NCBI RefSeq assembly: GCF_001542905.1
Contig: NZ_LOAJ01000002.1
Location: 62,001 to 126,000 of the forward strand
Reading direction: 5' to 3'
Origin: Halorubrum aethiopicum
GTDB taxonomy: Archaea; Halobacteriota; Halobacteria; Halobacteriales; Haloferacaceae
Length of the DNA: 64,000 nt
Under the pieces are notes generated by a model that made no database searches, had not been told where the DNA came from, and saw only the letters and a program-made list of their open reading frames with translations. A program made the translations under genes and the position numbers. This document shows, in pieces, positions 25,021 through 48,005 of the stretch (position 1 is its first letter; each line of letters starts with the position of its first letter).

Positions 25021-25095
25021 TCACCTGCGCTTTCGCGTATTTCGGTGTTCTCAAGCCGCCTGTATAATACTTACTATGCGAAAAGAGATTACAGA
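25021..25095 (-). promoter_or_regulatory. CATAGTAA promoter with GNRA-hairpin leader
   Basis: Minus strand: TAATCT near 25090, CATAGTAA (25071-25078), TATA box GTATTATA (25063-25070), hairpin CGC-GAAA-GCG (25028-25037), SD AGGTGA (25021-25026). Drives the gene starting at 25012. Confidence 0.8.
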
Positions 25096-25115
25096 TGAAA
25101 CGAGAAGTGTCGCAC

Positions 25116-25134
25116 ATTACTATCGGATAGGAAC
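25116..25134. promoter_or_regulatory. degenerate copy of the 19-bp palindrome
   Basis: ATTACTATCGGATAGGAAC: one changed base in each arm relative to the intact copies. It overlaps the stop codon of the C5 methyltransferase gene. Confidence 0.55.
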
Positions 25135-26325
25135 GTCGGCCGAGTCCTGCTCGTGTTCGAGGACCGCGTCCCGCAGGTGGCCCGCTAGGTGCGCGACGAG
25201 ATTCGGCGGGACGGCGTTCGCGGCCTGCCGGTACTGTTCGACGCGCGTTCCGGCGAAGGTCACCATATCCGGGAACGTTTGAAGCCGGGCAACCTCGCGA
25301 ACAGTCAGTCGCCGCACGTCGTTCACGGGCTCGTCCAGCGTCGAGGGCGACCGGCCCACGAACGACACCGGCGGTGTTCCGTCGCTTACGGTCATCGTCG
25401 GAGCCGGTCGGTCGGAGTGAAGACGTCGGTCGGTAGTCCGACTCCCACAAAACCCGAGCTCCCATTCGGCATACTTCGCCCGCGTCGCGTCGGCGTGATC
25501 GGGCGCGACGTGGTTCGGCGGCACCACCACGATCGTCCCGTCCACCTCCCGATGACCAGCCACGGTGTGCGGGTCGACGCGGTGTCGCCCCCACTCTCCG
25601 GCACCCGGCTGGAGTTCCTCGATCGTCGCATGAACCGGATCATCGGCCGGCGGCATGGACACAATCGGCTCCGGAAGCGAATCAAGCGCCTCACCCGCAG
25701 TATCGTAGCCCTCCAGCGCCGTCCCAGTGAGCGTCCGCGTCGGCGCGGGCGCGGTCACGACGGGTGGTTCCCACTGGTCGGGCGTCGGGCAGTCCTCGCG
25801 AACGGCGATGATGAACACGCGCTCGCGAGCCTGTGGGACGTTGTAGTCGGCGGCATCCAGCCGGAGCGTCGCCACGGTGTAGCCCTCGCCGGCGTCGGTG
25901 AGCGCGTCGACGAGCGCGCCGTGGGTCGGGCCGTGAAGATCCTGTAGACCGACGACGTTCTCGACGACGACGATCCGCGGGCCGACCGCGTCGACCCACT
26001 CAGGCACACAGAAGGCGAGTTGGTTCCGCGGGTCGTCGTCAACACTCCCACCGGATGACGAGAATCCCTGACACGGGGGACCAGCGAACAACAGGTCGAG
26101 GTCGTCGGGAACGTGGTCGGGACGCACGTCGGTCGCATCGCCGTACTGCGCGATGTCGGTCCCCTCAGTGTGGTTCACGCGGTAGGCGTACGACGCGACC
26201 GGGTCCGTCTCCCACGCTGCCCGCACGTTGAACCCGCCGGCGACGAGTCCGATCGTCGCGCCGCCCACCCCGGCGAACATGTCGACCGCCGTGGGACCGT
26301 CCTCGGGAAGCGAGAGCGTCGGCAT
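25120..26325 (-). CDS. DNA (cytosine-5)-methyltransferase
   Basis: 401 residues with all core motifs: DMFAGVGGATIG (motif I), AGPPCQGFSSSG with catalytic C85 (IV), VVVENV (VI), QARERVFIIAV (VIII) and EQYRQAANAVPP (X). It methylates cytosine C5; the target sequence is unknown. The start at 26325 overlaps the upstream stop (ATGA). No partner restriction gene is visible, so it may protect the replicon from host enzymes. Last gene of the operon from 28961. Confidence 0.93.
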   Translation of the reverse strand: MPTLSLPEDGPTAVDMFAGVGGATIGLVAGGFNVRAAWETDPVASYAYRVNHTEGTDIAQYGDATDVRPDHVPDDLDLLFAGPPCQGFSSSGGSVDDDPRNQLAFCVPEWVDAVGPRIVVVENVVGLQDLHGPTHGALVDALTDAGEGYTVATLRLDAADYNVPQARERVFIIAVREDCPTPDQWEPPVVTAPAPTRTLTGTALEGYDTAGEALDSLPEPIVSMPPADDPVHATIEELQPGAGEWGRHRVDPHTVAGHREVDGTIVVVPPNHVAPDHADATRAKYAEWELGFCGSRTTDRRLHSDRPAPTMTVSDGTPPVSFVGRSPSTLDEPVNDVRRLTVREVARLQTFPDMVTFAGTRVEQYRQAANAVPPNLVAHLAGHLRDAVLEHEQDSADVPIR

Positions 26326-26909
26326 CACGCCCACCCGCCGATTTCGGCCTGTTCGGTCGTCTCCTCGACGCTCGAACCCCCGGTCTCGTCGTCGATGATC
26401 CCGGCGTCGACGGCCGCCTCGACGCGCTCGGCGTGTGACTTTCGGACGCGGTGGCCCGACGGTCGCTGGCACTTCGTCCCGACGCCGGCGTCACAGTCCG
26501 GACACGCTACCCCGCGGGCGTCGCGGTCGCGTTGGCTCGCACCGCCGCGCTCGTTACGGTCGTTCGTGTCGGCGATCTCCGTGATCTTCTCTCGGAAACG
26601 CGCTCGACGCTGCCCGTGGGTGCCCTCGAAGCCCTCCGGAGAGTTCCACGCCGTCGTGTCGTACCATCCGTCGGCCGCGTCCTCCAGCGTGAGCCACTGC
26701 GTCGGCGACGGATCCTCAGCGTAGATGTTCACGAGGTGGTCCGTGATCGGGTGGGGCGACTCGTCGGCGTCGTCGAGAGACTCCGGGCCGCACCCGCAGG
26801 CGACGATGAATCCCCCGTCACCGATCTTCATGATCCGAACATCGGGACCCGGAACGTCGTGGTCGGCGTCGCTGACGTGGCACTCGTAGGTGAGGACGCG
26901 GTCGGTCAT
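26325..26909 (-). CDS. hypothetical protein with C-terminal zinc-binding motif
   Basis: 194 residues starting MTDRVLTYECHVSDADHDVP. The C-terminal part has CPDCDAGVGTKCQRPSGH followed by RKSHAERVEAA, a zinc-binding arrangement common in small phage proteins. The ATGA overlap with both neighbours fixes the start. Function unknown; may bind nucleic acid. Confidence 0.7.
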   Translation of the reverse strand: MTDRVLTYECHVSDADHDVPGPDVRIMKIGDGGFIVACGCGPESLDDADESPHPITDHLVNIYAEDPSPTQWLTLEDAADGWYDTTAWNSPEGFEGTHGQRRARFREKITEIADTNDRNERGGASQRDRDARGVACPDCDAGVGTKCQRPSGHRVRKSHAERVEAAVDAGIIDDETGGSSVEETTEQAEIGGWA

Positions 26910-27634
26910 CGTTCTCCACCGAAGGCGTCGAGTCCCGACTGTCCGGGAACCATGCCCTCGGCCTCGATCCCGTGTTGCTCTCGCGCCCACTCCCGAGTCT
27001 GTTTGAGCGCAACCTCCAGCCCGCACTCGTCGGGGAGATCGAGTAACACCGCGCGCTCGCTGGCGTCCGAGCGCGTCCACGGTGCTCGTTCGACCGTTGC
27101 GGCCCCGCTTCCGTTCCAGACATGAAGGTAGAGATAATCGTACTCGTCGGCTGAGCCGGCGTCACCGCCGAACAGTGACGAGCGCTCCGGTGCGTCTCGA
27201 CGCCGGTAGTAGATCGTCTGAGCACGCTCTGCCAGCTCGTACAGTTCGAGGTCGTATCCTGCGGGCGGGATGAACACCGCCTCGGTTACGTTGGGGTGCG
27301 ACCATCCGTCTGGCGCATGGTGGCGCATCCAGCCGAGCGCACGGTCGCACATGGCCGCCGTGGCCGCTCGGTCGCCCGCGGTCGCGTCCTCGTGATTCAG
27401 TCGCTCGATCGTCGCCGGCCGCTCTTCGACGGTAACCGTCCGCCCGATCCCAACTACGCGAGCGTCTCCGATTGCGAGTCGGACGTAGCCGAGTGAGCAA
27501 AAGACGCCCACGAACGCGGATCCATCCGCGGCCGTCCAAACATGCGCGTTGATCCCGGACTCCGGGTCGTGCGACCAGCCGTTCACGCCCGCGGGAAGCT
27601 CGTAGTCGTCGGGGAGGGGCGGCTTCGAGACCAT
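26906..27634 (-). CDS. hypothetical protein
   Basis: 242 residues starting MVSKPPLPDDYELPAGVNGW. Alpha/beta, with an N-terminal beta domain and a C-terminal helix VALKQTREWAREQHGIEAEG. Starts directly after the TGT-like gene stop. No family recognised. Confidence 0.7.
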   Translation of the reverse strand: MVSKPPLPDDYELPAGVNGWSHDPESGINAHVWTAADGSAFVGVFCSLGYVRLAIGDARVVGIGRTVTVEERPATIERLNHEDATAGDRAATAAMCDRALGWMRHHAPDGWSHPNVTEAVFIPPAGYDLELYELAERAQTIYYRRRDAPERSSLFGGDAGSADEYDYLYLHVWNGSGAATVERAPWTRSDASERAVLLDLPDECGLEVALKQTREWAREQHGIEAEGMVPGQSGLDAFGGER

Positions 27635-28306
27635 TCAGCCCCACCCCTCGATCGACGCCTGCTCGGCCGCCCGGTCGGGCTCGATCGGCTGCGTCTCCTC
27701 GGTCGCCTCCTCCAACAGATCGAGGTAGTGCCAGTACTGGTTCTGGAACACAGTCGTCGTGTCCGCGGAATCGAACCCCTGTCGGTAGGCCCACACGAGG
27801 CCGTCCACGCCGCCGGGACACCCGACATGTGTCCGGAGGTCGCGCTCGTCGGCGAGCCGGATTATCTCCGCGGCGTGCGCGCGCTTCCACCGGGTCGTCC
27901 CGCCGACGAACACGCCTTGACAGCCCTCGATCGCGTCGAACTGCTCGGCGATCGGCAGGCCGGGCTGGAGTACCCAGTACCGCATACACTGCCCCGAGCC
28001 GACGCCCATCGAGCGCCGGTACAACCAGTCGCGATGTCGCTGGATCGTCGCTTCCGCGGCACGATATACGTCCGGGAGCACGAGGAAATCGGGGCTTCGC
28101 GGCATCTCGATCAGCGCGCGCTCGACCGTTTCGACCCACGCGTCGGGATCGAAGTGGTCCGTGAACGCGCCGTTGTCGAGAAAGTACGGGGCGTCGTGCG
28201 GTGTCATCTTCGCTGGCGTCCACCCATAGCCGTGCGAATGTGAGGGCGCGTGTCGACGCGCTCGTTTCAGGTTCTCCGGGCTCGCGCCGGTGTAGTAGAG
28301 CCGCAT
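27635..28306 (-). CDS. TGT/DpdA-like TIM-barrel protein, candidate DNA guanine transglycosylase
   Basis: 223 residues from ATG 28306 (ATGA overlap). Landmarks of the tRNA-guanine transglycosylase fold: FLDNGAF (D44, compare DSGGF), DFLVLPDVYR (79-80), WVLQPGLP (111-118), GVFVGGTTRWK, HVGCPGGVDGL and GFDSADTT (D182 in the place of the TGT nucleophile). Phage DpdA proteins of this family insert 7-deazaguanines into DNA. It is much shorter than tRNA TGT and has no tRNA-binding domain. Its neighbour, a C5 methyltransferase, fits a DNA-modification role (inference). Confidence 0.55.
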   Translation of the reverse strand: MRLYYTGASPENLKRARRHAPSHSHGYGWTPAKMTPHDAPYFLDNGAFTDHFDPDAWVETVERALIEMPRSPDFLVLPDVYRAAEATIQRHRDWLYRRSMGVGSGQCMRYWVLQPGLPIAEQFDAIEGCQGVFVGGTTRWKRAHAAEIIRLADERDLRTHVGCPGGVDGLVWAYRQGFDSADTTTVFQNQYWHYLDLLEEATEETQPIEPDRAAEQASIEGWG

Positions 28307-28890
28307 CACTCCCACCCCACGTCCGGAGCCGCCCACGACTCCCGAATACACCCGACGCGCACGAGGTCGGCCACCGGGTAGTACACGGCAGCGGTGCCGT
28401 CGTCGCGAGCGTGTCGCTCACCTGTGAGCCGACCGTCGTCGACGGCCGTCCGGAAGGCCTCCACGTCGATGAGCCATGCCCGGATCAGGTGGTCGTCCGC
28501 TTCGTCGCGAAGCCCGAACACCATATCGCGCGGGAAGAGCCCGGACTCGTCGATGCCCGCGGGGACGCGGTCGGATTCACACGGTGTCGTACACCCGTTC
28601 GCGACGCGCCAGGAGAAATCCCGGCGGCCGGCGACGTTCGGGCGGATGCGCTCGCCGACGGGAAGGATCGCGTTGTTCGTATCGACGAGCCAGTCGACGC
28701 CGGCGTAGTCGAGAAACGTCACCGGGTCGTACTCGCCGCCGGTCTCGTACGCGCCCCCCTTCGCCGTCTCGACGGACACAAGCGACGCGTCCGCGACGCC
28801 GTACCACTCGCGAAGGCGCGCTCGCACGTCGCTCGCAACGCCGCCGGCGGCGTCCTTCCGGTCCTGGTCGAAGCACCGGGCGTCGCTCAT
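28306..28890 (-). CDS. hypothetical protein, first main gene of the modification operon
   Basis: 194 residues starting MSDARCFDQDRKDAAGGVAS. ATG 28890 is chosen because the leader-ORF stop overlaps it and GGAGGTG precedes it. Contains WLIDVEAFRTAVDDGRLTGE near the C-terminus. No family recognised; probably works with the TGT-like or methyltransferase products. Confidence 0.7.
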   Translation of the reverse strand: MSDARCFDQDRKDAAGGVASDVRARLREWYGVADASLVSVETAKGGAYETGGEYDPVTFLDYAGVDWLVDTNNAILPVGERIRPNVAGRRDFSWRVANGCTTPCESDRVPAGIDESGLFPRDMVFGLRDEADDHLIRAWLIDVEAFRTAVDDGRLTGERHARDDGTAAVYYPVADLVRVGCIRESWAAPDVGWE

Positions 28891-28961
28891 GCGACACCTC
28901 CGGGCAAGTCGTCGAGCTCCGATCTGTGATTCTGCGGCTGCCATAGGGGGTTGTGCCTCAT
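28887..28961 (-). CDS. leader ORF (MRHNPL type) of the modification operon
   Basis: 24 codons starting MRHNPLWQPQNHRS. Codons 3-6 are CACAACCCCCT (28945-28955), the same frame as at 10513. The TGA overlaps the ATG at 28890, and a strong GGAGGTG lies inside the ORF 5 nt before it. Confidence 0.55.
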   Translation of the reverse strand: MRHNPLWQPQNHRSELDDLPGGVA

Positions 28962-28966
28962 CGTGG

Positions 28967-29050
28967 TCACCTTGACCGGTTTCCCGGCGTTACCACTCAC
29001 TCTCTCACGCACTCACTTATAATTTACTATGCGAAAAAGGAGTATTACGG
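28967..29050 (-). promoter_or_regulatory. CATAGTAA promoter with GNRA-hairpin leader
   Basis: Minus strand: CATAGTAA (29024-29031), TATA ATTATAA (29017-29023), hairpin CCGG-GAAA-CCGG (28976-28987), SD AAGGTGA (28967-28973), then ATG 28961. Confidence 0.8.
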
Positions 29051-29055
29051 ACGGC

Positions 29056-29214
29056 TCACGCAAGGTGGTACTCGATCAATCGCTCGCCGAGTCGCGCGGT
29101 CATGATCAACAGGAACGCCCCGACGAACGCGAGGATGGCCGTCGCGAGGAATAGCGCGTACCCGACCTCGACGACCTCGGCGACCGCGGTCACCCCTGAA
29201 ACGACGGCCGTCAT
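29056..29214 (-). CDS. small membrane protein
   Basis: 52 residues starting MTAVVSGVTAVAEVVEVGYA with a membrane helix around 17-42 (LFLATAILAFVGAFLLIMTA). ATGA overlap with the upstream gene. Function unknown. Confidence 0.65.
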   Translation of the reverse strand: MTAVVSGVTAVAEVVEVGYALFLATAILAFVGAFLLIMTARLGERLIEYHLA

Positions 29215-29936
29215 GGGGACGCCTGCTCGTCCGCCCGGCTGAGCCGGTCGACGCGCGTACACGAGCCGCAGCGTTGCCAGGTGCCGTCCATCCCGCCATC
29301 GGGCTCGGCGAGGTGGACGGCGTCGTCGCCGGTCATCGTCTGATACGAGAGGATCCGGTAGCGATCTCCCTCGACATCGAGGAAGACGTGGCGTGCGCCC
29401 TCGAAAATCTCGCTCGCGATCGGCGGCGTGTCGTCAACGCGGTCGACCGTCCCCGTCATCGTCCCAATTGCGTCCCCCTGGACCCGAACTCGATCACCGA
29501 CTGCGAGGTCTCGAACCGTCTCGATCGGCGCGTGGCCCCCGTCGGTCCGGATACGCGCCTGCCCGCCACCCGTTCGGCGGTCGCGATCGACACGCACTCC
29601 GGCCGGGATGGTCACCGTTCCCTCTGGAGAGACCGTCACCCGACTCGTGCGGAGAACTGGGCGGAACGTCGTGCCGTCCCACCGATCAACGCGAATGTCC
29701 GGAAGATTCTCGGCAGGCTCGGCAGCCAGCAGGTAGGCCACGTTCTCGCTCGTCGCCCGGACTCCCTCCCTGCCGAACGCGTCGGCCATGTCGAGCACGC
29801 GGAGTGTCACGTCCAGCGGGACAACCCGAATCCGGTCGAACTGTTCGACTGATCGAAGCCGTTCGATCGCGTTGCTGTCGGTCGCTGATTGCTCTATCGT
29901 GTCGATACGTCCTGCCGTCGGTCGATGGTCGCCCAT
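29211..29936 (-). CDS. hypothetical protein
   Basis: 241 residues starting MGDHRPTAGRIDTIEQSATD. Central beta-rich part with VTVSPEGTVTIPAGVRVDRD, then an RTDGG motif, and a C-terminal CGSC pair. Driven by its own CATAGTAA promoter. No family recognised. Confidence 0.7.
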   Translation of the reverse strand: MGDHRPTAGRIDTIEQSATDSNAIERLRSVEQFDRIRVVPLDVTLRVLDMADAFGREGVRATSENVAYLLAAEPAENLPDIRVDRWDGTTFRPVLRTSRVTVSPEGTVTIPAGVRVDRDRRTGGGQARIRTDGGHAPIETVRDLAVGDRVRVQGDAIGTMTGTVDRVDDTPPIASEIFEGARHVFLDVEGDRYRILSYQTMTGDDAVHLAEPDGGMDGTWQRCGSCTRVDRLSRADEQASP

Positions 29937-29942
29937 GTGTGG

Positions 29943-30025
29943 TCACCTGCGCGCCCGAGTTTCCCCGAGCACGTTTCTCACATTACACCGACGCCACATA
30001 AATATTACTATGCGAAAAAAGATTA
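29943..30025 (-). promoter_or_regulatory. CATAGTAA promoter with GNRA-hairpin leader
   Basis: Minus strand: TAATCT near 30021, CATAGTAA (30005-30012), TATA TATTTAT (29998-30004), hairpin CGGG-GAAA-CTCG with one G-U pair (29956-29967), SD AGGTGA (29943-29948), start 29936. Confidence 0.82.
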
Positions 30026-30057
30026 TAGGAGAGATCGAGCGAACGGAATCCGGAGCG

Positions 30058-30831: not shown

Positions 30832-30926
30832 ACGCTTGCTATGCCCTTATCTACATTACATCTTCCGGAGTCAATATCACAATTAAGATTTGGAACGACG
30901 TATTTATACCTCTCTCGGGGCTATCT

Positions 30927-31046: not shown

Positions 31047-31084
31047 TCCTCGCATTTGTCGCGTTGGGTAAACAACAGAAACCC

Positions 31085-31621: not shown

Positions 31622-32029
31622 CTATTCCTCGACCCGCGTGAACACCTCCTCCTCACCGTACGGCCCGGTGTGAACGACGACGATCGTGCGGTTCGACCCG
31701 CTCGCGTCAACCGTCACGGAGTCACCTTCACTCACACTCCCGTACTCGCCCCACCGCTGAGAGTCGTCGACGTCGCCGTCGATAAGAATCTCCTCGGCCG
31801 GGACGGCGTCGCCGCCGGTGTGGGTTACCTCGACGCTGTCGGTCCCGAACGTTACCGTGAACTCGGCGTCGGCGTCACCCGACAACTCTCCGGTTTGCTC
31901 GTCGGTGAGCTGTAAGACAAGCGTCCCGGCGGCCGCCGAGAGAGCGACCGTAATCGCGATCATCAATACCACGCCGATGACGGGGCTTACGCCCCTGTCG
32001 TCGGCACCGAAGTCGATGTGTGCTACCAT
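31622..32029 (-). CDS. type IV pilin (archaeal PilA-like)
   Basis: 135 residues with MVAHIDFGADDRGVSPVIGV followed by VLMIAITVALSAAAGTLVLQ, the same processing site and helix as the convergent 31085 gene. The head is acidic and beta-rich (VEVTHTGGDAVPAEEILIDG). Unlike that gene it has the replicon GC content and a CATAGTAA/GNRA leader, so it belongs to the replicon regulon. Confidence 0.9.
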   Translation of the reverse strand: MVAHIDFGADDRGVSPVIGVVLMIAITVALSAAAGTLVLQLTDEQTGELSGDADAEFTVTFGTDSVEVTHTGGDAVPAEEILIDGDVDDSQRWGEYGSVSEGDSVTVDASGSNRTIVVVHTGPYGEEEVFTRVEE

Positions 32030-32035
32030 TCGTGG

Positions 32036-32115
32036 TCACCTGTGAGCCGGGTTTCCCCGACCCGATTCAACAAAACACCTGCCAGTACTTATAATTTACT
32101 ATGTAGAATAAGATT
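32036..32115 (-). promoter_or_regulatory. CATAGTAA promoter with GNRA-hairpin leader (pilin)
   Basis: Minus strand: TAATCT near 32112, CATAGTAA (32096-32103), TATA ATTATAA (32089-32095), hairpin CGGG-GAAA-CCCG (32048-32059), SD AGGTGA (32036-32041). Divergent from the next module. Confidence 0.82.
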
Positions 32116-32124
32116 ACAAACTTT

Positions 32125-32210
32125 CTAATCCTATCTAACATAGTAATACTTATGTAGAGGCCGCTCCTTGGTGTAGATGCGCACGGGCGAAAGCCCGACG
32201 CGCAAGGTGA
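32125..32210 (+). promoter_or_regulatory. CATAGTAA promoter with GNRA-hairpin leader
   Basis: TAATCC near 32126, CATAGTAA (32139-32146), TATA TACTTATG (32147-32154), hairpin CGGGC-GAAA-GCCCG (32184-32197), SD AAGGTGA (32204-32210), start 32217. Confidence 0.82.
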
Positions 32211-32216
32211 CCACGA

Positions 32217-32861
32217 ATGGACGAACCTACGACGACGACGGAGGAATCGACACAAGACCTCGCGGATCCGCCGCGCTACGAACTGTCGCACGATCGCGAC
32301 AGCGTCGCACACAAGAACGCCCGCCGGGCGGGGTACTACGGCATCATGTACGCCGACGAGTACGTGTGGAGTAACCGGCAGTGTACGGCCGAGGCCTACG
32401 GCGAGTTTTACGCCGACGCCCGCCCCGGAAAGCGCCACCGGATGATCAACGGCCAGCCGCGCCGGTCGCTCAAGTTCCACACGACGTGGATGGACGTGGC
32501 CGAAGCAAAGCCGTGTCTCGAAGAGATCGGCTCGTACAATCGCTTCGACGGCGACGTGACGGCCAACGCGCTCGACGACCTTCCGGAGCCCGTCCGGGTC
32601 GTCGTCGGCCGGGAGTCCTCGCCTGTCATGTATGTGTGGACGGTCGACGCGCCGGCCGCGTTCGACGTGTTCGACGAGCTGATCGTTGAGCACGAACCCG
32701 TCCGCGACGATCCCGACGAGATCGTCCCGGCGACGGACCACCGGCCGAACGAACTCGGCGGCGTGCCGAGCCCCGAGACGTTCCCGATCATCACAGTCGG
32801 GAAGGGTCGCGACGAACTGGTCTCCGGCGTTCCCACACTCTTGAGGGCGTGGTGGGATTGA
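32217..32861 (+). CDS. hypothetical protein
   Basis: 214 residues starting MDEPTTTTEESTQDLADPPR. Globular, with aromatic-rich RRAGYYGIMYADEYVWSNRQ near residue 38 and RVVVGRESSPVMYVWTVDAP later. Single gene with its own leader module. No family recognised. Confidence 0.75.
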   Translation: MDEPTTTTEESTQDLADPPRYELSHDRDSVAHKNARRAGYYGIMYADEYVWSNRQCTAEAYGEFYADARPGKRHRMINGQPRRSLKFHTTWMDVAEAKPCLEEIGSYNRFDGDVTANALDDLPEPVRVVVGRESSPVMYVWTVDAPAAFDVFDELIVEHEPVRDDPDEIVPATDHRPNELGGVPSPETFPIITVGKGRDELVSGVPTLLRAWWD

Positions 32862-32905
32862 CGGCATAGCCAACCCTCCCGACGAGCCATTTTTTCGCAG
32901 CCCCT

Positions 32906-32992
32906 ATAATCTTAATCAACATAGTAACAGTTATAGGGGCGGCGCGTGTTGGTGGAAGTACGCGACGGGTGAAAGCCCGACGCGGAAGGTGA
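32906..32992 (+). promoter_or_regulatory. CATAGTAA promoter with GNRA-hairpin leader
   Basis: TAATCTTAATC (32907-32917), CATAGTAA (32920-32927), TATA AGTTATAG, hairpin CGGGU-GAAA-GCCCG with a U-G pair next to the loop (32966-32979), SD AAGGTGA (32986-32992), start 32999. Confidence 0.82.
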
Positions 32993-32998
32993 CCACAG

Positions 32999-33457
32999 AT
33001 GGGAACACAGCATACCGACACGACCGCCGGATCGAGCGACAACCAGCCGACCAGCCGCCGCGAGCGGCTCGACGCCGCGTTCGACGCCGACGCGGGGACG
33101 GTGACCGACGAGTGGGAGGGCGCGGCCATCTACACGTCGTGGGGGTACGGGCAGACGAACGTGAACCTCGCGGCGATCGTCGAGGTGTCCGACTCCGGGA
33201 AGACCGTGCTCGCCCGCATGGTCCGGGCCGATGTCGAGACGCACTCGAACGGGAGTGAGGGCGTCCGCCCGACCGAGGAGTGCTACGGCGAGCCCTTCCG
33301 GCTACACGTCTGGGGAAGCTCGCGCGGAGCGTCGTTCCGCGGCAGCTACCCGTACATCGACGGCGACCCGGAGACCGGCACCCGGCTCGACTCGTTCATC
33401 CCCGTGGCCGAACGCGACAGCCCAATCCACCAGACGCCGACGAACCGCGGCCACTAA
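32999..33457 (+). CDS. hypothetical protein
   Basis: 152 residues starting MGTQHTDTTAGSSDNQPTSR. The body (YTSWGYGQTNVNLAAIVEVS, CYGEPFRLHVWGSSRGASFR) is beta-rich and probably a small single domain. Single leader-driven gene; no family recognised. Confidence 0.72.
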   Translation: MGTQHTDTTAGSSDNQPTSRRERLDAAFDADAGTVTDEWEGAAIYTSWGYGQTNVNLAAIVEVSDSGKTVLARMVRADVETHSNGSEGVRPTEECYGEPFRLHVWGSSRGASFRGSYPYIDGDPETGTRLDSFIPVAERDSPIHQTPTNRGH

Positions 33458-33498
33458 CGGCCGCCACCCCGTCGACGTCTTGAATTGTATTTCTGATA

Positions 33499-33579
33499 CT
33501 CTTATTCTACATAGTAACACTTATGATGGTGCCTGCCCTCGGTGAATACGTGCTCGGGGAAACCCGGGCGCGCAGGTGA
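33499..33579 (+). promoter_or_regulatory. CATAGTAA promoter with GNRA-hairpin leader, now driving a truncated gene
   Basis: CATAGTAA (33510-33517) preceded by CTTATTCTA, TATA ACTTATG, hairpin CGGG-GAAA-CCCG (33555-33566), SD AGGTGA (33574-33579), start 33585. Confidence 0.8.
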
Positions 33580-33584
33580 CCACA

Positions 33585-33722
33585 ATGAAAACACAACAGA
33601 CCGCCACAAGTCGGCGCGAGTGGATCGACACGGACGCCGAGCAGGATGTCAAGGAGGAGTTAAGCTCAGTTATCCTCGCGTCTAACCCGACAAGAGCCCC
33701 TTGCGCGAACGAAAATGGGTAG
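33585..33722 (+). pseudogene. leader-driven gene truncated at an HNH endonuclease insertion
   Basis: 45 codons starting MKTQQTATSRREWIDTDAEQ. The first ~30 residues have the replicon codon bias; the last ~15 (ILASNPTRAPCANENG) do not, and the ORF runs into the start of the HNH gene at 33715. The most economical reading is that a homing-type insertion replaced most of a normal leader-driven gene. The missing part is not found downstream. Confidence 0.5.
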
Positions 33723-34683
33723 AATGAACTCCGAGCCGAAATATCGCGACGAGGAATGGCTCCGCGAGCAGTACGTGGAAGAACACCGGAGTACAACCGA
33801 TATTTCAGAAGAATGTGGTTGTGCTCGATCGACAGTATCCAAATGGCTCAATAAACACGACATAGAGACTCGAACGGGGCGAGTGTCGGATGAGCGCTTG
33901 AATGATGCTGATTGGCTGCGTAAACAGTATGTGGAGGAACGCCGGAGGTCCTCCGAGATTGCCGAAGATTGTGGTTGTTCCAAACCGACAGTGGTCAGAC
34001 GGTTAAACAAACACAATATCGAGGTTCGAACGGAAACGAACACGACTACAGACCAGCGATTGGCCGATCCTGAATGGCTCCGCGAGCAGTGCGTGGATGA
34101 GCGACGGAGCATCTACGATATCGCCAACGAATGCGGTTGTGACAGCTCGACAGTATCCAGATGGTTAAGCAAACACGACATAGAGGCGGCACAGAGTGAG
34201 CAACAGACTCCTGACCAGCGCTTAATCGACGCAGACTGGCTCCGCGAGCAGTACGTGGAGGAGGGTCAGAGTACCAACGAGATTGCTGACGACCGTGATT
34301 GTTCCAGTTGGACAGTGTCTAAATGGTTAAGCAAACACGACATAGAGGCGCGCCCCGGTATTGGCGAACTCTCTGGCGAGGAACATCCGCACTACAACGG
34401 TGGCCCCGCGCCTTACGGTCCCGGCTGGAACTACCGGAAGCGCGCCGAGGTACGCGAGCGTGACGATCACACCTGCCAAGATCCGCGCTGCTCCGTCACC
34501 CAAGCCGACCACCTCGACGAGTACGGTAAGAAGCTCCATGTCCACCACCTACGGAAAGCGCGGGACGTTGAGGATCCCGAGGATCGGAACGCTAAAACAA
34601 ACCTGATCACACTGTGTCGCGACTGCCATCACCATTGGGAGAGGATTTCCGACACAGGACTCGTCCCCGAGGTAGAACGATGA
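33715..34683 (+). CDS. HNH endonuclease with four tandem HTH repeats
   Basis: 322 residues (ATG 33724 also possible). Four ~38-residue HTH units at about 14-52, 66-104, 120-157 and 174-212, each of the form EWLREQYVEE...STVSKWLNKHDIE. A C-terminal HNH domain has CxxxxC (254-259), HVHHLRKARD (275-284), TNLITLCRDCHHHW (295-308). Tandem HTHs suit recognition of a long homing site. GC content is lower than in the surrounding replicon genes, and it sits at the break of a truncated gene, so it is a likely mobile intronless homing endonuclease. Confidence 0.8.
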   Translation: MGRMNSEPKYRDEEWLREQYVEEHRSTTDISEECGCARSTVSKWLNKHDIETRTGRVSDERLNDADWLRKQYVEERRRSSEIAEDCGCSKPTVVRRLNKHNIEVRTETNTTTDQRLADPEWLREQCVDERRSIYDIANECGCDSSTVSRWLSKHDIEAAQSEQQTPDQRLIDADWLREQYVEEGQSTNEIADDRDCSSWTVSKWLSKHDIEARPGIGELSGEEHPHYNGGPAPYGPGWNYRKRAEVRERDDHTCQDPRCSVTQADHLDEYGKKLHVHHLRKARDVEDPEDRNAKTNLITLCRDCHHHWERISDTGLVPEVER

Positions 34684-34703: not shown

Positions 34704-34722
34704 GTTACTATCGTATAGTAAC
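34704..34722. promoter_or_regulatory. 19-bp palindrome GTTACTAT-CGT-ATAGTAAC
   Basis: Perfect 8-bp arms. Between the HNH gene stop and the promoter of the 34822 leader ORF (TATA ATATATTTT near 34761). Confidence 0.7.
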
Positions 34723-34821
34723 GGTCGCTCGTCGTCGATCGACGTCGCCGACGCTTCCCGATATATTTTCACCCCACCGGCGGAAGGACTATGGCACCGT
34801 ATCGAGACCTGTCAGTCGCTG

Positions 34822-34902
34822 ATGTATACACCGCACAACCCCCTTACTCAGAGACAGCCGCCGCTCACGTTTTACCCACCCGCCCAGCAGAGGGTCGAAT
34901 GA
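34822..34902 (+). CDS. leader ORF of the large secreted protein
   Basis: 26 codons starting MYTPHNPLTQRQPPL. The 11-mer is at 34834-34844 in the HNPL frame. The TGA overlaps ATG 34899 with AGAGGG just before it. Confidence 0.5.
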   Translation: MYTPHNPLTQRQPPLTFYPPAQQRVE

Positions 34903-37900
34903 CTCCCCGGTTCGAGCGCACGCTCTCGGTCGCGTGTGCGGTCCTGCTCGTCGTGTCGATGACAACCGCCGGCGTGTCGCTGTCGGCCGCTCCGACGGCC
35001 GCACAGACCGGCTCGAACGGCACCGATACCATCTCAGATGACTTCGAGAGCTATGCTGTCGGCGCGACGAATCCCGGCCAGTGGGAGCTTCAATCCGCGG
35101 GTGACACGCCGAGTGAAGTGATCGGCGACTCACTCACGGGCTCGCAATCCCTGTCGCTCGCAGCGGGTGACGCCTCGGCCGTCCGCCCGGATGCCACCGT
35201 CAACAGCGATGGGTTCGCCATTCAGGCGCTCATCCGAACGACCGATCAGGGCGGAGAGATCGAGTTCGGCGACGTACGGTTCGAGTACGACACCGGCGAG
35301 TTCACGAATCGGTTGTATCTCACTGATGGGACGAATCAGACGACTGCCGAGGGCGCGGCGACCGCCGGCGAGTGGACGCGGGTCCAGTTCGTCGGCGACG
35401 ATGGCGACCTCGCGGTAAAAACATGGCCCGCCGGTGATGCCGAACCCGACCAGCCGGATCTCCAGCTTGATAGCGTCTCGGAATCGGGCGCGCTCACGAT
35501 CCGGGCTTCGACGGACAGTTCCACGCTCGATATCGACTCGATCGACCTCCAGCCGTACTCGACGTTCGGGAGTGCGACCGTCTCGGGGACCGTCACCGAC
35601 CAGTACGGCGAGCCCGTTCCGAACGCGACGGTCCAGGGGATCGGCGTCACCGAACGCGCGATCGACGGCGACGATCTCGACGCCGAAGCGAACGCCCTCC
35701 TCGATGAGCTTTCGGACCCCCTTCCGGACATCTTCGATCCGGATGCTGACCTCACGGAGACGTACGCGAACGCGGATGGCACCTATGCCGCCGTCCACCC
35801 GGCGAGCGCGTGGGACCTCGGCGGCGTCAGTCTCGGTTCCGGTGCGGTATCCTCATCGATCACGCCGAGCCTCGATACGCCCGCGGTGGTTCTCCCGGCG
35901 GACGAGCAACTCGTCGTCTCGACGTGGGACGCCACCGAGACGGGCGGCGTGCTCTCACAGGACGGCGTGGATAGCTCACTCCCCGGCGCAACGACGGCCG
36001 AGCCCGTGGTCATCGAGCAACTCGGGCCGACCGGCGAGACGACCCACATGCGGACGGTCGACCCCCGGTCACTCGTCGAGGTGACGGCGATCGCAAACCT
36101 CGGAACGAAGACCCACGAGGGCGCGGTTGTCGACCTCCCGCCGGGGATCTATCGCGTCCATCCAGAAGACGCCCCGGAGACGGCGGTCGTCGTGGCCGTC
36201 GGTGACCCCGCCGCACTCGCGAACACGATCGAGGCCGACCTCCGAGACGACGCCGACCGGCTCACCGCGCGGGCCGACCGCGTGCGGGCATTGACGGCGG
36301 ACGGCGGGGGCGTGACGGATCTCTCGACCGAGACGAACGCCACCGGCGCGTACACGCTCTCCGTTCCGAGCAGCGTCGAGACCGTCCACCTCCAGGCGTT
36401 CGGTGTCGGCGGCGACACACAGACTGTCCTCGACACGAACCCGGAGAACGCGTCGCTCGCGGACGTACGCGACGCCTACGACGGCGGGTATACCGGCACG
36501 CTCACACTCTCGACGACGCCCGTCCGGACGACGCCACCCGACGACCAAGCCGACCTCACGGTCCATCGGCTCGACGCGCCGCCGGTCGCGTCGCCCGTTG
36601 CCTTCGAGGATCGACTCGACGCATGGGCGAACGATACGCTCGACACCCGGCTGTCGGATCTCAGGTCATCGGTCGTCGACGATCTCACCGGTAACGAGCT
36701 GACGCGCGAGAATCTCACGGCCGTCTACGATGACCTCGACGCGCTTCGCGAGCAGAACGACGCCCTCGACGAGCGGGTTCGGGAGCGACTCAGCGAGCGG
36801 ATCGAGGATCCGACTGCCGTCGACGACGACGTGCTCCGGGAGGAGGTGGCCGGGATTCAGGCCGCGATCGACGACCTCCAGCATACGATCGACGCCGAAC
36901 CGCCCGAGACTGATCTCGATGACGGGCTCTTGTCCTACGAGACGGTGTTCGACGCGCCCATCCCCGCAGAGGCGGTCGCCGTCACGGCCACGTACGCGAA
37001 CGGGACGACCGAGCGGATCGGCGACGAGTACGTGACCGTCGAGGAGGGCGGGTTCGGCCCGCTTTCGTCGACGACCGTCGCGATCGAGGAGTACCCCGTC
37101 CCCGCGGGAATGCAGGTCGCGGACGTGCGTGTCCAGGTCGCCGGCGCGGATCGACTCGGCGAGAGTCGGGATCGCGTTGCCAGCGACGCCCTCGATGGCG
37201 ATTTAGCGAGTCTCGATGCGATCACGGTGTCGACGTTCGATCCCGGCCCGGACGACCGCGTCACCCTCGCCGTCGACGCCGGCGACACACGGATGCGCGT
37301 TGTGGACGTGGCCGCGCGCAACGCCGCAGGCGACCCCGTCACGGCGACCGTCGACGGCGGCCGGGCGACCGTCCACACCGACGGCCAGGGTATCCACACG
37401 ATCGCGCTCACGTACGAACAAGCCGGCGTCGAGATGACCGAGACGCTCCGCGTCGAGGCCGGCGCAACGAGCGGATCGACACCCGCGACCGTCCGCATGT
37501 CCGAGGGGCCGAGCGGGACGTACGCGATCACCTCGGGGCTCGCCGGGGCGACCGTCGAGACTAGCGGCGACGGGCTGTCGATCGAGGCCCGTGCGGCCGC
37601 CGACGACACGCCGGGGGCTATCCACCTCCATCCGCAGGCGGCCATGAGCGGCGACGTGGACACCCTCGACGTCGAGGTCCTCCGGGCGGACGGCGAGACC
37701 AGCCTCGACCGGCACGCGTCCGTGTACGTCCACACGACGGGACTCGCGGAGGACGCGTTGCTGTGGCGGGACGATGGCCCGATCACTCGCGGGGGCGACA
37801 CGCAGTACGGCGAAGTGCTTGACCGGGGCGATGGGAAGGCCGTCGTCTCAACGTACACGGACGCCGACGGAGCCGTGACGGTCGACATCCGGCACGAGCC

Positions 37901-37964
37901 GAGCGTCCTCGACCGTGCCCAACATTGGACCGCCGTTCGTTCGCCAATTTCACTCCCGATGTAG
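34899..37964 (+). CDS. large secreted surface protein
   Basis: 1021 residues. ATG 34899 is preferred over an in-frame ATG at 34791 because a Sec signal peptide follows at once (SVACAVLLVVSMTTAGVSLS, cleavage near AAQT). A LamG-like beta sandwich (about 35-190), a carboxypeptidase-regulatory-like domain (VSGTVTDQYGEPVPNATVQG), a helical stalk near 580-680 (LREQNDALDERVRERLSERI) and more beta domains follow. No membrane anchor: the end (AVRSPISLPM) looks clipped. Possible adhesin or spike. Confidence 0.8.
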   Translation: MTPRFERTLSVACAVLLVVSMTTAGVSLSAAPTAAQTGSNGTDTISDDFESYAVGATNPGQWELQSAGDTPSEVIGDSLTGSQSLSLAAGDASAVRPDATVNSDGFAIQALIRTTDQGGEIEFGDVRFEYDTGEFTNRLYLTDGTNQTTAEGAATAGEWTRVQFVGDDGDLAVKTWPAGDAEPDQPDLQLDSVSESGALTIRASTDSSTLDIDSIDLQPYSTFGSATVSGTVTDQYGEPVPNATVQGIGVTERAIDGDDLDAEANALLDELSDPLPDIFDPDADLTETYANADGTYAAVHPASAWDLGGVSLGSGAVSSSITPSLDTPAVVLPADEQLVVSTWDATETGGVLSQDGVDSSLPGATTAEPVVIEQLGPTGETTHMRTVDPRSLVEVTAIANLGTKTHEGAVVDLPPGIYRVHPEDAPETAVVVAVGDPAALANTIEADLRDDADRLTARADRVRALTADGGGVTDLSTETNATGAYTLSVPSSVETVHLQAFGVGGDTQTVLDTNPENASLADVRDAYDGGYTGTLTLSTTPVRTTPPDDQADLTVHRLDAPPVASPVAFEDRLDAWANDTLDTRLSDLRSSVVDDLTGNELTRENLTAVYDDLDALREQNDALDERVRERLSERIEDPTAVDDDVLREEVAGIQAAIDDLQHTIDAEPPETDLDDGLLSYETVFDAPIPAEAVAVTATYANGTTERIGDEYVTVEEGGFGPLSSTTVAIEEYPVPAGMQVADVRVQVAGADRLGESRDRVASDALDGDLASLDAITVSTFDPGPDDRVTLAVDAGDTRMRVVDVAARNAAGDPVTATVDGGRATVHTDGQGIHTIALTYEQAGVEMTETLRVEAGATSGSTPATVRMSEGPSGTYAITSGLAGATVETSGDGLSIEARAAADDTPGAIHLHPQAAMSGDVDTLDVEVLRADGETSLDRHASVYVHTTGLAEDALLWRDDGPITRGGDTQYGEVLDRGDGKAVVSTYTDADGAVTVDIRHEPSVLDRAQHWTAVRSPISLPM

Positions 37965-38327
37965 CGGCAAATATCTTATATTGGCTACACTTTATTGCTG
38001 TATGCTAACGACACTCTCACTGGCGGTAGACAAGCACCAGTTGGACTGACCTAACTAGCTTTTCCCCACTACCGTCTTTCAAGCCCGGTTGTGACCACAA
38101 TCCTCTTTATCGGGCGGCGTCTCCCGTGAGATAGAACCCGCTGCTGCCGGTGTCCTACCGTTGTGGTCACCTTGCGCGTCAAACCCGCAAACACAACTCT
38201 TTCGACACACCGTAGCAGGGCGGGTTCACTTCAACAGTCGTGAGCGACAGCACTCCGTCGCTCTCGCGGTCGCTATACCCTATTCGTGAATCTGTCTTGA
38301 TGGCGGTTGCCGCCACTATCTTTATGC
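37965..38327. other. gene-free interval with a decayed leader module
   Basis: No gene. On the minus strand AAGGTGACCACA (38162-38173) is preceded by a degraded hairpin (GCGGGTTTGACGCGC) and followed by ACG instead of ATG: a vestigial leader. Also a GGTTGTGACCACAATCC inverted repeat near 38087 and a hairpin AGCGAC/GTCGCT near 38242-38262 before the parA iterons. Confidence 0.5.
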
Positions 38328-38358
38328 GATACCGCTATCGATACCGTAATCGATACCG
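38328..38358 (+). repeat. 12-bp iteron cluster directly before parA, candidate centromere/operator
   Basis: GATACCG at 38328, 38340 and 38352, separated by CTATC and TAATC; the last unit abuts the parA ATG. Upstream TATA-like CTTTATG is at 38319-38325. Such repeats before parA genes typically serve as both operator and partition site. Confidence 0.75.
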
Positions 38359-40325: not shown

Positions 40326-40341
40326 CTCACACGTCCTATCT

Positions 40342-40360
40342 GTTACTATCATATAGTAAC
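40342..40360. promoter_or_regulatory. 19-bp palindrome GTTACTAT-CAT-ATAGTAAC
   Basis: Perfect 8-bp arms, 16 bp after the stop of the 39840 gene. Confidence 0.7.
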
Positions 40361-45572: not shown

Positions 45573-46868
45573 TTACTCGCTTTTCGCGATCCGCTTTGCG
45601 AGGTCCATCACGGTCTCGATGTTCGTCGCATCCTCGTCGTTTGTGGTCGTGCTACCATTCTCAACGATATCAGACGGGTTGGTGAACATCTGCCCCATCG
45701 AGACGAGCATGAACTCGGCGAGCTGGGCATCGGTCTCATCGAGCGACTGCTGAGACTCTAAGACCTTTCGAGAGGGTTCAAGTGTCTGTGCCATCGTCGA
45801 TTTGAAGGCGTACTCCTCCATGAGGCGTCGCTTGCGAGAGTAGTTCTTAGATGTGAACCACACACCGACTAGGAGTGGAATCAAGAGCGTCACACGCGAA
45901 ACGGTACCAATACCAAGACTGGTAGATTCTAGAAGGCTCCAAAATATCACGATAGCTCCCGCAATAAGGGCGATTATCGCACCAAAGGTGAGTCTGGCCC
46001 ATCGTGTCGCCGAATTTTCTAGTTCTTCTTTTCGCTCAGTGAAGTTTCTATCAAGAGACGCTGCAATCGCACCGCTAAGTAGTGTATCAATTCGATCTTC
46101 AATATCATCGAGGCTGCTTTTCTGCTGGCTTAATTGCTCAGATCTGTCTTCTATCTCAGAGAGATTTGAATCGAGCCGATCTTCGTAGTCGTTCATCTGC
46201 TCTGTCTTTTTGAGAACTTTCTCGTAACGATCGTTGATTGTATCTGCTTCCTTCTTAATGTCCTGAGACGTGTTCGAAGCCTTGTTTTCGATTTCCTCTA
46301 AGCTTCCTTGAGACTCCTTTGCCGAAGAAACAATCCGATCGATCTCATCTTGCTGTTCAGATATGTCGTCGTGGATAGAATTTATCTTCTCGTGCGTCTC
46401 TTCGGCTTCCCCGAGATTTTGGATTGCCTTCTGGTGCTCCTCACGGGTTTGTTCGAGTTTATGTAATTGCTCGGAGAAATCGAGATGTTCTCCGACCCGT
46501 AAATCTAGACTTAGGTCCCCAATGACGTAAGTTTGGAGTTTGTCGACACGATTGATGAAGTCCTTACCAGGGTTGTTTCTCCGCCCATCGTTTTTGTTTA
46601 CAATGTTGCCAGCTTCCTGACGAACACTGTTTAATCGGTCTTTGATGTTACTTTGCTGTCCTCTCCCGAAGACGCTAATAATATCATTTTCAATAGCAAT
46701 CTCAAGCAACTCAGAGATATGCTCAAAGTCTGCAATTGCCTCATTTAGTGTGATCCCCCCATGTTCTGTGGTGTAGTTTTCTTCAGCTGCTATCTCAGAA
46801 AATTCACTGACATTGTCAAAGTGTTCGTGGTTGAGTAAGTCACGAATCTTCTCAACGTGCTGGCTCAT
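45573..46868 (-). CDS. long coiled-coil membrane protein
   Basis: 431 residues. A helical N-terminal domain is followed by a long coiled coil (about 130-270, e.g. EQTREEHQKAIQNLGEAEET). Two membrane spans follow (about 296-318 and 325-343) and a C-terminal helical region with SMGQMFTNPSDI. AT-rich compared with the operons on both sides. The shape recalls membrane-tethered sensors or apolipoprotein/MCP-like stalks; no enzymatic motif seen. Likely an acquired accessory gene, possibly defensive (speculative). Confidence 0.7.
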   Translation of the reverse strand: MSQHVEKIRDLLNHEHFDNVSEFSEIAAEENYTTEHGGITLNEAIADFEHISELLEIAIENDIISVFGRGQQSNIKDRLNSVRQEAGNIVNKNDGRRNNPGKDFINRVDKLQTYVIGDLSLDLRVGEHLDFSEQLHKLEQTREEHQKAIQNLGEAEETHEKINSIHDDISEQQDEIDRIVSSAKESQGSLEEIENKASNTSQDIKKEADTINDRYEKVLKKTEQMNDYEDRLDSNLSEIEDRSEQLSQQKSSLDDIEDRIDTLLSGAIAASLDRNFTERKEELENSATRWARLTFGAIIALIAGAIVIFWSLLESTSLGIGTVSRVTLLIPLLVGVWFTSKNYSRKRRLMEEYAFKSTMAQTLEPSRKVLESQQSLDETDAQLAEFMLVSMGQMFTNPSDIVENGSTTTNDEDATNIETVMDLAKRIAKSE

Positions 46869-46913
46869 GTCCTACTACTGATTAGTCCATCACAAAGAAT
46901 GATTCCCACTCCA

Positions 46914-47000
46914 AATAATCTAACTTTACATAGTAATTACTAAGTGGGGTCGGTCCGTTGGTCGAAGTGTGCCCGGGGAAACCCGGACGCGCAAGGTGAC
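46914..47000 (+). promoter_or_regulatory. CATAGTAA promoter with GNRA-hairpin leader
   Basis: TAATCTAACTTTA (46916-46928), CATAGTAA (46929-46936), TATA TTACTAAG, hairpin CCGGG-GAAA-CCCGG (46973-46986), SD AAGGTGACCAC before ATG 47006. Confidence 0.82.
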
Positions 47001-47005
47001 CACAG

Positions 47006-47470
47006 ATGGATGACACCGATTTCGACGTTGCCGACGCAGCACAGGAACTCGAACGCAAGCCGACGACGCAGAGTGGCTCCGTCCGCAAGAACGACGCGAT
47101 GGCGTGGCTGAAAGGCCTCGATACGCCCTCGGACGACGAGCTGATCAGCGCGGTGACGCACAAGCCCGACGAGTTCTCAGGGTCGACGTTCGCGACGCCA
47201 GTCTCACAGGTCCGCGTGACGGGTGACTCGACGTTCATTTCCGCCGTCGCCGGCCTGCTCAAGCCGCTCCTCGTGTGGGAGAGTTCCGCGACCCGGCTCG
47301 ATCTCAAGGTCCAACAGGTCGAGGATCGCGAGACCGGCGAGTTGACCGACAACTACGCGCTGTACCTCGGTGCGGCCGAACGCGGCGGCCAGGGCAAGAT
47401 CGCGTCAGCACTGATGGGAACGAACAAGGAGAACGACCGGAAGCTGCTGGAGGCTCTCGACGATATGTAG
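47006..47470 (+). CDS. hypothetical protein
   Basis: 154 residues starting MDDTDFDVADAAQELERKPT. Ends with AAERGGQGKIASALMGTNKE, a possible basic-glycine loop. Leader-driven single gene. No family recognised. Confidence 0.7.
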   Translation: MDDTDFDVADAAQELERKPTTQSGSVRKNDAMAWLKGLDTPSDDELISAVTHKPDEFSGSTFATPVSQVRVTGDSTFISAVAGLLKPLLVWESSATRLDLKVQQVEDRETGELTDNYALYLGAAERGGQGKIASALMGTNKENDRKLLEALDDM

Positions 47471-47506
47471 GCGCGACCTCTCCCGGTAACCCATCTTTCA
47501 TTCTTT

Positions 47507-47592
47507 GATAATCTTATTCAGCATAGTAAAATCTAAGTAGGGGCGGGGATTCGATCGGGGTGTGCTCGGGGAAACTCGGGCGCGCAGGTGAC
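47507..47592 (+). promoter_or_regulatory. CATAGTAA promoter with GNRA-hairpin leader
   Basis: TAATCTTATTC (47509-47519), CATAGTAA (47522-47529), TATA-like AATCTAAG, hairpin CGGG-GAAA-CTCG (47567-47578), SD AGGTGACCACC before ATG 47598. Confidence 0.82.
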
Positions 47593-47597
47593 CACCG

Positions 47598-48005
47598 ATG
47601 AACGAAACCTTCGGAAACGCAGGCGTAGTACAGACCACCGACCGCCTCAGCAACGAGGCCGGCTGGAGCGCGGTCGAAGAGCGTGTCACGGAGAAGCTCG
47701 ACGACGCGGCCGAGATATTCGATGCCGCCGAGACGATCCACGAGTGGGACGACCTTCACGCGTGGGCGGCCGCGTTCGCCGAGGGCGGCTCGGCGATCAC
47801 GTTCGAGCACCCCGACGGCGCGTGGGTCCGGATCAGCGAGGGCTCGGTGAAAAACGGGTTCGATGTCCACACTTCGACTGGCGCGGAGCGGGTGGTCCCC
47901 CAGCGGGCGATCGTCTCGACGAAGCGGTACGTCCACTCCCTCGACCGGTGCGTGACGACGGCCGTCGCACAGATGTGCGCGTACAGTCGCGACGGCGAGT
48001 TCTGA
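47598..48005 (+). CDS. hypothetical protein
   Basis: 135 residues starting MNETFGNAGVVQTTDRLSNE. N-terminal helical half, C-terminal beta half (AITFEHPDGAWVRISEGSVK). Leader-driven single gene. No family recognised. Confidence 0.7.
   Translation: MNETFGNAGVVQTTDRLSNEAGWSAVEERVTEKLDDAAEIFDAAETIHEWDDLHAWAAAFAEGGSAITFEHPDGAWVRISEGSVKNGFDVHTSTGAERVVPQRAIVSTKRYVHSLDRCVTTAVAQMCAYSRDGEF

Follow-up and report, generated by a model that had tools for sequence, protein, structure and literature searches.

A promoter-and-hairpin cassette repeated along a vesicle-type plasmid of Halorubrum aethiopicum supports a plasmid-wide regulon

Nine copies of one regulatory cassette precede genes on a plasmid of the haloarchaeon Halorubrum aethiopicum, and this arrangement strongly supports a plasmid-wide regulon. 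The stretch of DNA analyzed here (the window) comprises 64,000 nucleotides, positions 62001–126000 of contig C2 (NZ_LOAJ01000002.1), a 165,936-bp replicon in a genome of 3.33 Mb and three contigs (C1–C3). Each copy is a module of ~75–90 nt, with similarity extending past the TATA element into the leader. Its parts are, in order, an upstream element, the box CATAGTAA, TATA, a hairpin with a GAAA loop, GGTGACC and the start codon. No copy lies on the chromosome, but related vesicle plasmids carry the cassette as well, hence these plasmids appear to run a coordinated gene set of their own. We consider it probable, judging from sequence, that the module genes are co-regulated by a dedicated plasmid factor; which factor this is, when it acts and what the leader does are points that we infer.

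Results

Nine modules share the box, the TATA spacing and the leader

An earlier note, made from the letters of the window, had proposed a box directly before the TATA element of nine promoters. We found CATAGTAA at all nine positions and on the claimed strands (9 matches versus 0.40 expected, a number reached in 0 of 100 shuffles), and a TATA-like element begins 3 nt past it in 9/9 copies without an indel. The note had further placed TAATCT 12–18 nt upstream. This hexamer is exact in 6/9 copies, and the remaining three have TAATCC, TACTCC or TACTCT in the same register, but the spacing turned out to be fixed (13 nt start to start, 7 nt between). The pilin, the DNA-modification operon and several unassigned proteins, which the note had included in the regulon, all stand behind modules. 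The copies and the open reading frames (ORFs) that they precede are as follows.

25016–25093, minus strand: copy 1, short-leader class (TAATCTCTTTTCG-CATAGTAA-GTA-TTATAC, GCGAAAGC hairpin, GGTGACCAC)
24212–25012, minus strand: 266-aa protein driven by copy 1, candidate regulator with a weak AbrB-like signal
28962–29046, minus strand: copy 2, before the modification operon
25120–28961, minus strand: modification operon behind copy 2 (24-codon ORF at 28961, then 28306–28890, 27635–28306, 26906–27634, 26325–26909 and 25120–26325, the last encoding a C5-cytosine DNA methylase, PF00145)
29938–30027, minus strand: copy 3, before the 241-aa gene
29211–29936, minus strand: 241-aa protein behind copy 3, found only in module elements, followed by a 52-aa ORF (29056–29214)
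32031–32118, minus strand: copy 4, before the pilin gene and divergent from copy 5
31622–32029, minus strand: type IV pilin behind copy 4 (PF07790)
32124–32215, plus strand: copy 5, divergent from copy 4
32217–32861, plus strand: 214-aa protein behind copy 5, found only in module elements
32905–32997, plus strand: copy 6, before the 152-aa gene
32999–33457, plus strand: 152-aa protein behind copy 6, no family named
33495–33584, plus strand: copy 7, before a 45-aa ORF and a tandem helix-turn-helix (HTH) gene
33585–34683, plus strand: the 45-aa ORF behind copy 7, overlapping the tandem-HTH gene (33715–34683), whose protein has four tandem ~54-aa HTH repeats and an HNH-like C-terminus
34791–37964, plus strand: second, divergent homologue of ORF6 of the vesicle plasmid pR1SE (33% identity over 478 aa), downstream of copy 7 and past a palindrome
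46914–47004, plus strand: copy 8, before the 154-aa gene
47006–47470, plus strand: 154-aa protein behind copy 8, no family named
47507–47596, plus strand: copy 9, before the 135-aa gene
47598–48005, plus strand: 135-aa protein behind copy 9, whose orthologues retain the module

GGTGACCAC begins 44–60 nt past the box in 9/9 copies, and the ATG follows 1–4 nt after it. Upstream element, box and TATA are joined without an indel in the Halorubrum copies, and across 28 Halorubrum modules the information content is ~18 bits upstream of TAGTAA, 11 bits in TAGTAA and 9 bits in the TATA part. De novo clustering of 98 C2 upstream regions grouped 8/9 module genes with the palindrome-leader gene at C2:30037; reversed upstream regions, used as decoys, scored at most 16.5 against a clustering threshold of 21. 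Copy 2 was not in this cluster because its first ORF, of only 24 codons, was skipped by the gene caller. One regulatory sequence precedes several operons of one mobile element, an arrangement also seen in establishment regulons.

The archaeal TFB recognition element (BRE), bound by transcription factor B (TFB), has the consensus RNWAAW, which AGTAAN of the box fits. The box occupies the BRE position, and a factor bound there would touch the TFB site, in agreement with the earlier note.

The window lies on a pR1SE-like plasmid

By gene content, the window sits on a 166-kb pR1SE-like plasmid-vesicle plasmid (apHPV). In tblastn searches, C2 encoded homologues of the pR1SE core proteins ORF6, ORF7, ORF8 and ORF9 and of those at positions 17, 21, 23, 24 and 25 (pR1SE ORF numbers past ORF9 are by position), with 52–87% identity and located at C2:41431–59850. 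Blastn showed the 43–62 kb part of C2 to be collinear with pR1SE, in opposite orientation. There are two ORF6-type vesicle proteins on C2, one in the module region (window 34791–37964) and one in the core (C2:57163–59850), and the core itself is without a module. Window positions 4594–8112 hold a homologue of pR1SE ORF1 (RepH) with 85% DNA identity; the replication gene and the vesicle core are both common to pR1SE and the C2 plasmid. The remaining window is largely collinear with the portion of pR1SE2 that is not present in pR1SE. A survey of vesicle plasmids states, by contrast, that the elements it newly identified have no pR1SE-type ORF1 (PMC10818511).

The module is confined to plasmids and recurs on related ones

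The earlier note had called the regulon replicon-specific and had named copies of the box before many unrelated chromosomal genes as a reason to abandon it. This check came out negative, and the claim was upheld: CATAGTAA occurs only 14 times in 3.33 Mb, 11 times on C2, and is therefore not a general promoter type. CATAGTAA together with GGTGACC is found in the whole genome only at the nine copies, all on C2, and a covariance model detected no module on the host chromosome. When 392 Halobacteria genomes were searched with a covariance model of 21 modules, matches appeared in five only, including the host (G000). A second model, of 42 modules, run on the 24 genomes bearing the core gene ORF24, returned just those five again. 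ORF24 itself is present in 24/392 genomes, including 5/5 module-bearing ones (hypergeometric p about 6e-7). pR1SE2 has four modules, and a scan of 84,980 genomes led to Hrr. saccharovorum DSM 1137 and Halorubrum sp. CSM-61 as module bearers (G216 and G361); other matches in that scan were single sites in unrelated organisms, which we took as chance. Likewise, 37 IMG/VR matches to the box plus GGTGACCAC were attributed to chance, there being no module in their sequences and their GC content being 34–53%. A phage collection searched at the DNA level gave no module match.

Natronosalvus amylolyticus (NZ_CP101158) and Natronorubrum daqingense (NZ_CP019329) carry modules with a different box on plasmids, both of which bear vesicle-core genes. 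In these Natrialbaceae the module mostly consists of an ATGC element followed after a few bases by CAATAGTAA, then TATA at an unchanged spacing, a GAAA hairpin and GGTGACCACG. The upstream half is thus lineage-specific, TAA-rich in Halorubrum and ATGC-type in most Natrialbaceae copies, while TAGTAA and the GAAA loop persist. A half that differs between the two groups and is common within each would be expected if it had co-evolved with a trans-acting factor, and is hard to account for by TFB alone. The regulon recurs on related plasmids of two Halobacteria families.

Genes travel with the module as well. Orthologues with a module are found for the 266-aa protein in six elements, for the 214-aa protein in five and for the 135-aa protein in five. 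The 266-aa gene has its own module in all five other module elements and retains the short GCGAAAGC leader down to 24–35% protein identity. Relatives of the 266-, 241-, 214- and 135-aa proteins occur in module elements, though not each in every element, and mostly behind modules; none was detected at E ≤ 1e-4 in 15 module-less vesicle-plasmid sequences (several of them partial).

The leader hairpin is conserved by pairing and tied to TATA

In all nine copies, TATA and GGTGACCAC enclose a G+C-rich hairpin whose loop is GAAA. Among 42 modules, 184/210 of the inner five stem pairs were paired versus 121 ± 6.5 (maximum 146 in 5000) after re-pairing of the arms, although the loop giving the best stem was taken for each module and pairing is somewhat favoured by this choice. 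We counted pairs starting at the loop and moving outward, as RNAalifold on a MAFFT alignment mispaired stems of unequal length, which misalign. Stem position 3 is G-C in 23 modules and C-G in 15. The loop was scored GAAA in 40/42 modules; by eye, the other two, for which a wrong loop had been chosen automatically, have GAGA and GAAA.

The loop lies 36–40 nt from TATA in long leaders and 31–36 nt before 266-aa genes, and its distance to the Shine–Dalgarno (SD) sequence is more variable, about 10 to 18 nt (the automatic TATA, loop and SD distances were wrong for two copies, one with two boxes and one without GAAA). Archaeal transcription typically starts ~26 nt past TATA. With this start assumed, the loop would be ~11–13 nt from the mRNA 5' end. 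Because the loop is tied to TATA and the SD falls outside the main stem in predicted folds, we infer a role in 5'-end stability or as an aid to translation rather than in SD masking. In the 266-aa class the hairpin is short and its predicted fold weak, hence the evidence there is conserved sequence and not stability. The leader has some independence, as shown by box-less copies, one of them in the window:

10481–10512, plus strand: leader-only copy behind a different promoter (CACGGGAAACCGTCACTGGTGACCACG before the ATG at 10513; box absent)

A leader similar to this copy (at 10503) is found in G361 at C11:466417. No leader matched Rfam.

A 266-aa regulon member is the best candidate regulator

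Two copies of the box half-site make up a 19-bp palindrome, GTTACTAT-N3-ATAGTAAC, with seven copies on C2 and none in the rest of the genome; it is also present on pR1SE, pR1SE2, G216 and G361. Sites in the window and a related near-palindrome are:

4631–4649, unstranded: palindrome, sequence match
34704–34722, unstranded: palindrome, before the ORF6 homologue
40342–40360, unstranded: palindrome, directly past the parA operon
25116–25134, unstranded: near-palindrome TTACTATCGGATAGGAA, ATAGTAA half 47 nt upstream of the copy 1 box

We disfavoured the palindrome as a partition site, because parA is directly preceded by separate 12-bp repeats (38330). At C2:30037–30109 (minus strand) and in pR1SE at L099:33285–33351 (plus strand) a palindrome is followed by the leader hairpin and GGTGACC with the module TATA absent between them; this palindrome is possibly an operator between TATA and the start.

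Within ~110 nt upstream of Halorubrum modules, an extra half-site is present only at the 266-aa promoters (4/4), once divergent pairs, in which each module has the other's box upstream, are set aside. In three of these promoters the site stands at –47 and forms a palindrome carrying a mismatch; in the remaining one it stands at –81. Such a restriction suggests autoregulation and puts the 266-aa protein first among the candidates: that it is the plasmid regulator, controlling itself through the extra palindromic site, falls a little short of an even chance in our estimate. An AbrB identity was tried and not favoured. The hhalign signal of the 266-aa profile against six host AbrB-type domains was weak (P = 3e-4, probability 38%; reversed profile P = 0.6). 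Predicted structures of the 214- and 266-aa proteins had a mean pLDDT of 39 and were not used for fold search.

The earlier note had pointed, among others, to two winged-HTH (wHTH) proteins:

8842–9177, plus strand, and 9174–9443, minus strand: two paralogous wHTH genes, tail to tail, candidate regulators

Relatives of this pair do occur on four other module elements, and none on the 15 module-less sequences at E ≤ 1e-4, but a sliding-clamp backbone gene has nearly the same pattern. The 266-aa protein is the better candidate; both this pair and the tandem-HTH protein are further possible ones.

Other repeated elements on the replicon

A conserved non-coding stretch (GAACCCGCCCTGCTACGGTG...GACGCGCAAGGTGACCACAACGG...CACCGGCAGC) lies at 38100–38250 (minus strand), between the ORF6 homologue and parA, and also at L085:29129, L104:17777, L107:9529 and L162:18819. 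It has 18 nt in common with the copy 5 leader, there is no ATG within 200 nt of its SD-like motif in the window, and it is possibly a small RNA. GATACCG-type repeats with a 12-bp period are dispersed over the replicon, some within genes (38330–38358, directly upstream of parA; 10559–10617; 15344–15402; 49221–49327; 51366–51472; 52784–52854), and look like partition iterons. A second upstream element, TTCACTTCCACTTTCACTCC...CATGGCT, has three copies at C2:8338, 10422 and 72181 (plus strand), the last being window position 10181.

Discussion

Model and its weak points

We propose that a plasmid-encoded DNA-binding protein would read the upstream element and ATAGTAA beside or over the BRE, and that all promoters would then switch together. 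The 266-aa regulon member could be this protein, controlling its own gene via the extra palindromic site. With transcription starting ~26 nt past TATA, the hairpin would lie at the extreme 5' end and might protect the mRNA or aid translation. In a host where the plasmid is established, a repressor would hold the module genes at low expression; arrival of vesicle-borne plasmid DNA in a naive cell would then fire the genes for the DNA methylase, surface proteins and small proteins of no named family. By analogy with bacterial plasmids, this course of repression and firing on entry is plausible, though we rate it short of an even chance. We favour it over activation of the GvpE type (PMC8241225) because the organization matches the establishment regulons of the pLS20 family (PMC8708921). 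The full combination, a zygotic-induction regulon whose self-encoded factor represses BRE-fused half-sites and, through the palindrome, itself, with 5'-hairpin mRNAs fired on entry, is rather unlikely to hold in every part.

Several observations weigh against the model. Part of the box (AGTAAN) is equivalent to a strong BRE, which accounts for some of the conservation without an extra factor, and the stem test leaned towards pairing as described. The two Natrialbaceae plasmids have no 19-bp palindrome. Searches of Pfam, NCBIfam and PDB profiles gave no match for the 266-aa protein, whose resemblance to AbrB is faint. Among the scanned regulon proteins we found no known anti-restriction family (the C5-cytosine methylase is present). 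In Hrr. saccharovorum and CSM-61, module and core lie on separate contigs or far apart on one contig. Lastly, pR1SE transfers in vesicles yet is without the module, thus the regulon is not needed for transfer.

Alternative explanations

The box could be only a strong BRE with the flank preference of one host TFB paralogue, its genes being constitutively strong and no plasmid factor being involved. AGTAAN directly before TATA fits such a reading, and several TFBs are encoded in the host genome (all TFIIB-domain matches lie on C1 and C3, and none on C2). We nevertheless judge it improbable given the rarity of CATAGTAA in the genome, the ~18 bits upstream of TAGTAA that change as a set between lineages, and the plasmid-only palindromes formed by the same half-site. 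Alternatively, the copies may be alike through spread of the cassette with its cargo, as a moron-like capture unit, or through recent duplication, and not through selection for co-regulation. That adjoining genes are unrelated, that regulon membership varies among plasmids and that some leaders are near-identical (families D14 and D17) would agree with this. However, stems differ yet stay complementary, TATA spacing is kept while stems vary, and orthologues keep their own leader type across genera, GCGAAAGC at the 266-aa gene with 24–35% identity being an example; capture instead of co-regulation is hence a quite improbable account. The two are compatible, as a regulatory cassette may also ease gene capture.

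Co-regulation by a plasmid factor could also serve a late or surface program, with genes on in the donor during vesicle production instead of in a newly entered recipient. Such timing is supported by the pilin and the ORF6 homologue, which belong to the regulon or follow it, but the vesicle core is without a module, pR1SE makes vesicles without one, and a DNA methylase with small variable ORFs suits establishment better; we hold late timing to be unlikely, though a serious contender. Finally, the leader might be a translational switch, a riboswitch or the site of an RNA-binding protein, and the main control point, with the promoter incidental. The nearly invariant GAAA loop and the box-less leaders at 10503 and in G361 are in line with this. 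By contrast, the SD lies outside the main stem in predicted folds, the loop position follows TATA more than the SD, and Rfam gave no match, which leaves the switch a distinctly improbable main control. Co-regulation at the promoter by a plasmid factor stays our preferred reading.

Significance and comparison with known systems

Plasmids that move in vesicles, pR1SE among them, make the boundary between plasmids and viruses less sharp. A survey of such plasmids is silent on gene control, with no mention of promoters or hairpins (PMC10818511). In the open-access literature we found no prior description of the cassette; subscription journals, including the 2017 pR1SE paper, were outside the scope. 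The cassette yields a testable list of jointly switched plasmid genes together with candidate regulators, and its 5'-end hairpin is a compact natural element for tests of mRNA stability and translation in haloarchaea. It also suggests that archaea may handle the establishment of incoming DNA as bacterial conjugative plasmids do. The C2 plasmid resembles the pR1SE/apHPV plasmids (PMC10818511) in its vesicle-core homologues and RepH, and differs from pR1SE, which is without the region that bears the modules.

By analogy, the regulon is probably the archaeal counterpart of bacterial plasmid establishment regulons. EGeRS1 and EGeRS2 are establishment gene regulatory sequences of pLS20-family Bacillus conjugative plasmids (p576, Reg repressor), EGeRS2 combining a promoter and operators for the repressor with inverted repeats at the 5' side that are presumed to extend mRNA lifetime (PMC8708921). 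In both systems a multi-copy cassette stands before clustered, variable operons of a transferable plasmid, and the inverted repeat in the 5' region recalls the hairpin of the C2 cassette. They differ in that EGeRS combine bacterial sigma promoters with a ribbon-helix-helix repressor versus archaeal TATA/BRE with a putative factor, and in that conjugation there contrasts with presumed vesicle transfer for the C2 type; the C2 cassette is ~90 nt, and no anti-restriction gene was recognized in its regulon. Sister plasmids of the EGeRS family use unrelated cassettes for the same job, comparable to pHALXA03. This module-less vesicle plasmid (NC_015659, L225) has an unrelated four-copy cassette (17421 and 17841, minus strand; 18171 and 19002, plus strand) in the order TATA, hairpin, fixed end and ATG, with CGGTAGTTTTATGATATACCGTAACTAAGTTACG before the hairpin (one hairpin being GGGCGAAAGCCC) and CGGTGTTCCCC as the fixed end. 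Since the architecture is the same there, more than one origin of the cassette strategy is possible.

GvpE-activated gas-vesicle promoters of haloarchaea have a 20-nt upstream activating sequence (UAS) beside the BRE (PMC8241225) and share with the modules a conserved ~20-bp element that abuts BRE/TATA at a fixed distance and is common to more than one promoter. The sequences are unrelated, the activator has been identified in the GvpE system, and that system has two promoters of one gene cluster versus nine across about 22 kb on C2. We know of no conserved leader hairpin at GvpE promoters. The Frpo-type promoters in the leading regions of F-like plasmids likewise put a repeated promoter before several establishment operons (PMC8708921), but Frpo acts as folded single-stranded DNA, whereas the C2 cassette is a double-stranded TATA promoter with a separate RNA hairpin. 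The kind of system, a plasmid establishment or UAS regulon, is known, and its promoter-plus-hairpin form on archaeal vesicle plasmids is new.

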